Of a stretch of DNA of 34,508 nt, positions 26,652 through 33,361 are shown piece after piece. The position numbers and the translations under genes were made by a program. This DNA comes from Gemmatimonadota bacterium. Its GTDB lineage: Bacteria; Gemmatimonadota; Gemmatimonadetes; Gemmatimonadales; GWC2-71-9. Where the stretch lies: the NCBI GenBank assembly GCA_016794805.1, contig JAEUJI010000318.1, positions 1-34,508 on the forward strand, written 5' to 3'. The stretch's first letter is position 1, and every line of letters starts with the position of its first letter. Under the pieces are notes generated by a model that was not told the origin of the DNA, made no database searches, and saw only the letters and a list, made by a program, of their open reading frames with translations.

Positions 26652-31292
<4,641 letters not shown>

Positions 31293-31314
31293 CAGGGACT
31301 CCTCGGGGCACACG

Positions 31315-31345
31315 AAAAAGGCCCGCTCCATTCAGGGAGCGGGCC
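31315..31345 (-). terminator. gltB leader attenuator: terminator plus competing antiterminator
   Basis: Minus strand: segment 3 GGCCCGCTCC (31345-31336), loop CTGAAT, segment 4 GGAGCGGGCC (31329-31320), then TTTTT (31319-31315), a textbook intrinsic terminator ending 22 nt before the gltB ATG. Segment 2 GGAGCGGTCC (31393-31384) can pair with segment 3 at 9 of 10 positions (antiterminator). Segment 1 (31443-31431, CCGCTCCGCCCGG) can pair with 31398-31387 (CCGGGGGAGCGG) in 12 bp with one bulged G, which sequesters segment 2. Segment 1 and the control codons lie in the leader peptide, and segment 2 lies just before its stop. Confidence 0.8.
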
Positions 31346-31365
31346 GGTCAGGGGCAGGCTCGACG

Positions 31366-31449
31366 TCAGCCCGTCACCGCGCCGGACCGCTCCCCCGGGG
31401 GGAGGGCCTTGGTAATAAGGACGGCGGCGACCGGGCGGAGCGGCAACAT
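31366..31449 (-). CDS. gltB leader peptide (27 aa)
   Basis: Starts MLPLRPVAAVLITKALPPG and continues for eight residues to a TGA at 31368-31366. Codons 7-16 (Val-Ala-Ala-Val-Leu-Ile-Thr-Lys-Ala-Leu) are the likely control region; five of these ten are branched-chain and three are Ala. The Pro-Pro-Gly after them resembles the Pro-Pro-Cys-Gly in enteric IlvL, as I recall it. A ribosome stalled in codons 7-16 would cover segment 1 and free segment 2; one reaching the stop would cover segment 2. The ATG is 7 nt after the -10 hexamer, so it is probably translated from a leaderless transcript. Which amino acid is sensed is inferred only. Confidence 0.7.
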   Translation of the reverse strand: MLPLRPVAAVLITKALPPGERSGAVTG

Positions 31450-31456
31450 ATGCATA

Positions 31457-31484
31457 AAAATACGCCCCGGTGGGACCGGGTCAA
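31457..31484 (-). promoter_or_regulatory. gltB promoter
   Basis: Minus strand: -35 TTGACC (31484-31479), 16-nt spacer, -10 TATTTT (31462-31457). An inverted repeat CCCGGT-GGG-ACCGGG (31466-31480) occupies the spacer and touches the -35, a possible operator. Transcription should begin at about 31450. Confidence 0.65.
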
Positions 31485-31611: not shown

Positions 31612-31713
31612 ATGCTTCGCTCGCTGCCGCTCGTGCTCGTCCTTATTAGCCTCGTGCTCGTCCTTCTGGGACTCGAGTACGGGGACCGCGGCGCTTACGG
31701 GCAGAAGCAGTAA
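31612..31713 (+). CDS. leuA/ilv leader peptide (33 aa), branched-chain rich
   Basis: ATG 31612 (a GTG at 31609 is in frame), AGGA at 31603-31606. The product reads MLRSLPLVLVLISLVLVLLG, then LEYGDRGAYGQKQ, stop TAA at 31711. Ten Leu, four Val and one Ile make up 15 of 33 residues; codons 7-21 hold 13 branched-chain residues. Leu is mostly encoded by CTC (5) and CTT (3), with CTG only twice. The 15-nt string CTCGTGCTCGTCCTT is present twice in frame (31630-31644 and 31651-31665), doubling the Leu-Val-Leu-Val-Leu run. It is followed by a terminator 26 nt after its stop. This is the layout of an amino-acid attenuator like leuL/ilvL. Confidence 0.88.
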   Translation: MLRSLPLVLVLISLVLVLLGLEYGDRGAYGQKQ

Positions 31714-31739
31714 CGGCGAGTAGCAGGCGCCTCCCCCGG

Positions 31740-31773
31740 CCGCGGACCCCTCCAGGGTCCGCGGTTTTCGTTT
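31740..31773 (+). terminator. leuA-ilvB attenuator terminator with candidate antiterminator
   Basis: CCGCGGACCC (31740-31749), loop CTCCA, GGGTCCGCGG (31755-31764), then TTTTCGTTT: an intrinsic terminator 34 nt before the leuA start. A competing pairing is visible: GGGGACCGCGGC (31681-31692, leader codons 24-27/28) can pair with GCCGCGGACCCC (31739-31750) in 11 bp with a single A-A mismatch. Ribosome stalling at the Leu/Val codons leaves 31681-31692 free to act as antiterminator. A protector (1:2) pairing is less clear here than at gltB. Confidence 0.85.

Positions 31774-31807: not shown

Positions 31808-33357
<1,550 letters not shown>

Positions 33358-33361
<4 letters not shown>

Follow-up and report, generated by a model that had tools for sequence, protein, structure and literature searches.

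A short leader reading frame, an antiterminator and an intrinsic terminator precede gltB, the gene for the large subunit of glutamate synthase, in a Gemmatimonadota bacterium (assembly GCA_016794805.1, contig JAEUJI010000318.1). By far the best explanation for this arrangement is a ribosome-mediated transcription attenuator of the trp/ilv type. We estimate its probability from sequence comparison at about 0.82, taking the anatomy to be real, conserved and specific. The window denotes the whole analysed stretch of 34,508 nt. The earlier note on this DNA had proposed such an attenuator, and its proposal is now backed by a conserved ORF, antiterminator and terminator, by a stop codon at or just behind segment 2, and by a codon bias in the leader.

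The translation, stalling and termination that we infer would proceed as follows. Transcription would begin on or directly beside the leader ATG, allowing a ribosome to load at once. With ample aminoacyl-tRNA for the control codons (Val-Leu-Ile-Thr-Lys, codons 10-14), the ribosome would reach the stop codon and cover segment 2, leaving segments 3 and 4, judging from anatomy and folding, to form the terminator before gltB. With scarce aminoacyl-tRNA, it would stall on the control codons and keep the upstream RNA off segment 2. The free segment 2 could pair with segment 3, and the polymerase would read into gltB. Glutamate synthase would rise in response to a shortage of amino acids whose amino group is drawn from glutamate.

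Anatomy and conservation of the gltB leader

On the reverse strand, gltB occupies 26652..31292 of the window, with its ATG at 31292 (1546 aa; Pfam; NCBIfam NF008730, 1673 bits), preceded by the Shine-Dalgarno sequence GAGGAG at 31299..31304. The leader ORF, MLPLRPVAAVLITKALPPGERSGAVTG, lies upstream on the same strand (31366..31449) and reads from ATG 31449-31447 through 27 codons to TGA 31368-31366, as the earlier note had described it. Its T5 intrinsic terminator (31315..31345, reverse strand; scan and alignment) was likewise found, and its 3:4 pairing was correct, with 31345-31336 and 31329-31320 matching in 10/10 bp ahead of T5 at 31319-31315. This GC-rich 10-bp hairpin sits 20 nt past the leader stop codon. 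It cannot belong to an upstream transcript, because the next gene upstream of gltB, leuA, is divergent.

A scan predicted a sigma70-like promoter upstream of the leader ORF, with a -35 element TTGACC (31479..31484) and a -10 element TATTTT (31457..31462), both on the reverse strand, separated by a 16-nt spacer and scoring 9/12 jointly. The upstream DNA of many relatives holds a TTGAC box at the same place. Shuffled sequence would be expected to yield 0.4 terminators and 0.1 promoters in these scans, and both were found in the real sequence. From the promoter spacing, +1 would fall at about 31450. The leader mRNA would then be leaderless, because this start adjoins the A of the ATG at 31449, and a second in-frame ATG upstream, at 31455, would be excluded, because the predicted +1 falls after it.

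The -10 element and +1 are overlapped by an AT-rich element, TGCATAAAAATAC (31451..31463, forward strand; found by eye), a possible candidate operator. Within the family, most gltB promoters carry elements that resemble it by eye, often in two copies (L004-L016), and one is retained at L012, a locus without attenuator. A genome-wide search for the exact pattern found no other copy in the bacterium's own genome, and a regulon was dropped with this single exact site. The recurrence of such elements, even at L012, would suit a terminator near the promoter that acts constitutively, regulation being exerted by a DNA-binding protein at this AT-rich element. Such regulation leaves segment 2, the stop position and the codon bias unexplained, and it could coexist with the attenuator as a second layer. 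As a full account of the locus, we find it scarcely credible.

The earlier note had suggested searching Gemmatimonadota gltB upstream regions for a leader ORF plus terminator. In the window's family (f1), of the order Gemmatimonadales, both are present at 39 of 44 loci, in 14 genera; 38 were recognized by script and one, L046, by eye. Among the other five, L039 is cut by a contig end, L012, L049 and L019 lack the arrangement, and L040 has decayed. At L040 (genome G069) the leader is reduced to ATG GCG CAT TCC TGA (MAHS-stop), abutting the terminator, and the attenuator has apparently been lost. Because the same arrangement recurs in 14 genera, the architecture in the window is beyond chance. 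Measured from the beginning of segment 2, the leader stop codon comes about 12-27 nt later in the listed family members, even though their peptides differ.

In the next family (f2), leaders with terminators occur in the genera g39, g45, g50 and perhaps g70, and their sequence is unrelated to that of f1. Reading the upstream DNA of the f2 genera g42, g62, g67 and others revealed no leader before gltB; such loci are many in f2, and we count them against the attenuator reading. A scan of 46 remote glutamate synthase loci in other phyla found no comparable leader. The specificity of the f1 leader was seen with a covariance model (R1) searched against 395 genomes of the phylum: at E below 1e-11 it matched only in f1, at gltB leaders already known. 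A potential second leader copy in the own genome (C287) was rejected as a chance match inside a coding region.

The leader peptide varies freely, with 33 synonymous versus 164 non-synonymous codon differences and no third-position excess, and a conserved arrest peptide was rejected on these counts. Because the peptide changes so freely, the case for coding comes only from its open frame, from where start and stop fall, and from the bias in codon use. Nascent-peptide arrest of the TnaC or Erm type, with the peptide itself as sensor of a small molecule inside the ribosomal tunnel, would gain from the partly similar C-terminal ends (GSDRAA, GATG) within groups of genera. The peptide is nevertheless unconserved between or within genera, and the common C-terminal letters are largely forced by the RNA of segment 2, which makes arrest very unlikely.

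Pairing potential of the leader RNA

Pairing and covariation were counted in an alignment of 32 family leaders (A1). The terminator was 95% paired over these sequences, with compensatory changes exceeding all 500 shuffles. The antiterminator, GGGAGCG-A-CCGGG with CCCGG-CC-CGCTCCC, was 88.8% paired, versus at most 63% when slid. Covariation of this 2:3 pairing showed no excess over shuffles among the 32 leaders; it is uninformative in f1, because the 2:3 core is nearly invariant. In genus g39 of f2, TTCTGCGCG pairs with CGCGCAGAA in some antiterminators and CTTTGCGCG with CGCGCAAAG in another, which gives two compensated pairs as read by eye.

In the window, the 5' arm of the antiterminator is segment 2 (31382..31395, reverse strand), predicted to fold as GGGGAGCGG-U-CCGG around the nearly invariant GGGAGCG core. 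Segment 3 (31334..31347, reverse strand; fold and alignment) serves both as its 3' arm and as the 5' arm of the terminator, and the two structures are mutually exclusive. The predicted fold joins 31395-31387 with 31342-31334, plus CCGG 31385-31382 with 31347-31344. The 2:3 pairing proposed in the earlier note (31393-31384 with 31345-31336) was right in substance, but a few bases off. When folded with segment 1 covered and segment 4 not yet present, the RNA is predicted to form the antiterminator (-41.1 kcal/mol, z -2.6).

The far 1:2 pairing proposed in the earlier note (31443-31431 with 31398-31387) was not supported. It can be drawn, but folding predicts a local hairpin in its place (31385..31408, reverse strand), in which 31408-31399 pairs with 31395-31385 through 10 bp with one bulge. 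This hairpin was 68% paired in relatives versus 38-56% when slid, and little better than shuffled; folding weakly favours it over the far pairing.

The effect of the ribosome position was approached with a crude model, in which the RNA left free downstream of the ribosome was folded at each codon and the antiterminator compared with the terminator. In the window, the cost of the antiterminator relative to the terminator was lowest for a ribosome at codons 12-15 (I T K A; 6-8 kcal/mol) and highest, about 20 kcal/mol, for one at the stop. Most family members gave the same curve: antitermination did best while the ribosome was still a few codons short of segment 2 and was strongly penalized once it stood at the stop. 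Throughout this equilibrium folding sum, the terminator remains the stronger hairpin; attenuators depend on the antiterminator forming before the terminator. When the region upstream of segment 2 was shuffled, the real dip relative to early codons proved only about 1 kcal/mol deeper than in the controls (Wilcoxon p 0.03 over 14 genera). So small a difference does not establish a dedicated 1:2 pairing, and the case is carried by the 2:3/3:4 switch and the stop codon.

The sequence conservation of segments 2-4 would also fit a metabolite riboswitch or a protein-binding leader RNA acting via the terminator, with the ORF being incidental. Such an RNA would not be out of place, as glutamine riboswitches and the gltD motif, both riboswitch candidates, are known before glutamate synthase genes (PMC8632094). 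Rfam covariance models, including that of the glutamine riboswitch, gave no match in the window, and the consensus fold of the 32 leaders is the terminator alone, with no conserved aptamer upstream. The start, the stop and the in-frame bias also move along with segment 2. Control of this kind is improbable.

Control codons and the amino acid signal

The control region was defined as the codons with their first base 33-12 nt before segment 2, and its percentages are genus-weighted. It is made up mainly of codons for Leu (18%), Val (12%), Asn (11%), Ala (11%), Thr (9%), Pro (9%), Ile (8%) and Lys (7%), while Asp, Glu, Phe, Tyr, Trp and Met codons are at or near zero. With Glu codons at 0% and Gln codons at 0.9%, the region is not cognate to the gltB product. 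Asn, Lys, Val and Thr are mostly restricted to the reading frame: Asn reaches 11.3% in frame 0 versus 1.0/0.1% in the other frames, Lys 7.2% versus 0/0.4%, and Val 12.2% versus 1.2/1.0%. Leu, Ile and Val together account for 41.6% in frame 0, versus 22.3 ± 3.3 after shuffling.

The choice of synonyms is also unusual. AAT, ATT and CTT, rare in these GC-rich genomes, are over-used in the control region. There AAT:AAC is 11.3:0.9, versus 11:65 in five genes of the window, and ATT:ATC is 5.1:3.6, versus 11:142; CTT makes up 5.7 of about 20 Leu codons, versus 7/346 in the same five genes. According to a modelling study, sensitive attenuators require a particular synonym choice (PMC1183508).

In the window, the folding minimum and the codon bias place the control region at codons 10-16, V L I T K A L (GTC CTT ATT ACC AAG GCC CTC; 31402..31422, reverse strand). 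Leu/Ile/Val codons occur throughout the family. They account for 54% of the control codons in the six genera, among them the window's, that have gltB beside leuA, versus 33% elsewhere, where Asn (AAT) is just as striking and reaches 16.5%; this contrast is a pattern and not a test, as the two sets of genera may be two branches of the tree. Windows defined by folding are mixed, with I T K A in the window and V T, L N L V, L T L, I V and N P A T in relatives, and no single amino acid is common to all of them.

The earlier note had named Val/Leu/Ile, or Ala/Thr, as the signal. The in-frame bias bears out Val/Leu/Ile, and Ala as a signal is not supported. From codon content, Leu/Ile/Val is the most likely signal in the window's genome, perhaps joined by Thr/Lys; for the family as a whole, a mixed signal including Asn has about the same likelihood. 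Asn alone, attractive given the strong enrichment of AAT, was rejected, the control region of the window and the folding-defined windows of several relatives being without Asn. Formation of Asn-tRNA by transamidation only was rejected as a family trait, since 34 of the 41 family genomes have an AsnRS over the cut-off. In the window's own genome (G000), gatB is present and no asparaginyl-tRNA synthetase exceeded the family cut-off, which could be an assembly gap.

The same attenuator could respond not to the product of one pathway but to a broad shortage, of branched-chain amino acids together with Asn, Lys, Thr and Ile of the aspartate family, so that glutamate synthase would be tuned to the general amino-nitrogen supply. 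We consider this a serious contender, at somewhat less than even odds. It would account for the lack of an amino acid present in every folding-defined control window and for the in-frame enrichment of Asn and Lys, which is as strong as that of Leu/Ile/Val. In addition, single-pathway leaders (leuA, asnB) show clean codon runs, and gltB leaders do not. Against it stands the share of Leu/Ile/Val in the window's genus group, and the mixed codons may partly reflect selection for an unstructured, A/T-richer RNA. Tentatively, and with slightly less confidence, we suggest that the mixed control codons tie glutamate synthase to the general amino-nitrogen supply and that the signal has shifted in evolution, being mainly Leu/Ile/Val where gltB adjoins the attenuated leuA-ilvB operon and largely Asn (rare AAT) elsewhere.

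Leaders elsewhere in the phylum and known systems

A second, branched-chain, attenuator-like leader lies in the window, divergent from that of gltB. The leader, MLRSLPLVLVLISLVLVLLGLEYGDRGAYGQKQ (31612-31713, forward strand), is followed by a terminator (31738-31766, forward strand), by leuA (31808-33361) and then by ilvB. Leu/Val/Ile-rich leaders occupy the same position in five other genera with leuA beside gltB, and leuA leaders of the phylum consist of about 40-50% L/I/V. The string GTCCTTATTA is common to the leuA and gltB leaders. Both have a leader ORF and a terminator in the same neighbourhood; unlike the gltB leader, the leuA leader carries a classically pure Leu/Val/Ile run, cognate to its own operon.

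Ten weaker matches of R1 were read, and most are other attenuator-like leaders. They precede asnB, cysH-like, pheA-like, metY-like, sulfite/nitrite reductase and phosphatase genes, named from inspection of the protein and not by family search, and several have runs of cognate codons. For example, an asparagine synthetase gene (L201, 380-477 and upstream, genome G245) has a terminator and a leader ending ...ACANRNNGNCEPSQRAGD, reading N R N N G N with four AAT codons, and this is a candidate asparagine attenuator; a literature search found no paper on one of the asnB kind. The cysH-like and sulfite/nitrite reductase genes (L200, L209) have leaders with TGT TGT TGT (Cys) ahead of a terminator. 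Prephenate dehydratase-type (pheA-like) genes at L202 and L204 have leader and terminator, with FFF in the L202 leader MMTHSSTYRVAFFFAAYLTEG. O-acetylhomoserine sulfhydrylase-like (metY-like) genes lie downstream of terminators at L203 and L205, and the L203 leader, MPHSPRTLMLMCMCRLPYMG, is Met- and Cys-rich. In three family members (L206, L207, L208), a HAD-type phosphatase gene follows a leader ORF with Cys/His/Asn and a terminator. Leader-peptide attenuation seems to be widely used in Gemmatimonadota.

Our literature search found neither leader-peptide attenuation of gltB nor a leader-peptide attenuator in Gemmatimonas or its phylum, which is weak evidence of absence, as subscription papers were thinly covered. 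Leader-peptide attenuation is known for pathways that produce the amino acid read by the leader. If our reading is true, attenuation governs a central nitrogen-assimilation enzyme via codons for other amino acids, possibly in parallel to the neighbouring branched-chain operon. With the asnB, cysH-like, pheA-like, metY-like and leuA leaders, the phylum would offer a testing ground for attenuation. As of a 2010 survey, leader-peptide systems outside Proteobacteria and Actinobacteria were still a novelty (PMC2965389).

A close comparison is with the ilv/leu attenuators, namely ilvGMEDA, ilvBN and leu of enterobacteria and ilvB of Corynebacterium and Mycobacterium (PMC1262725, PMC11857589, PMC13236596). 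In common with the gltB leader, they have a short ORF with Leu/Ile/Val codons, an antiterminator, an intrinsic terminator, and a stop codon placed so that the terminating ribosome covers an antiterminator arm. Unlike in these systems, the product of the gltB target is not the amino acid of the control codons, the codons are mixed with Asn, Lys and Thr, and the mRNA is probably leaderless in the window's lineage. The gltD motif and the glutamine riboswitch resemble the gltB leader as RNA control ahead of a glutamate synthase gene, and differ from it as aptamer-type candidates without a leader ORF.

Leaderless poly-cysteine leader ORFs have reportedly been described in mycobacteria, by Canestrari et al. 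in 2020. Like that of gltB, these ORFs apparently start at the 5' end of the transcript, and they differ in reading a single amino acid and in preceding other genes. From the classical trp/his/ilv definition, the gltB leader departs in one tested feature: its control codons are non-cognate.
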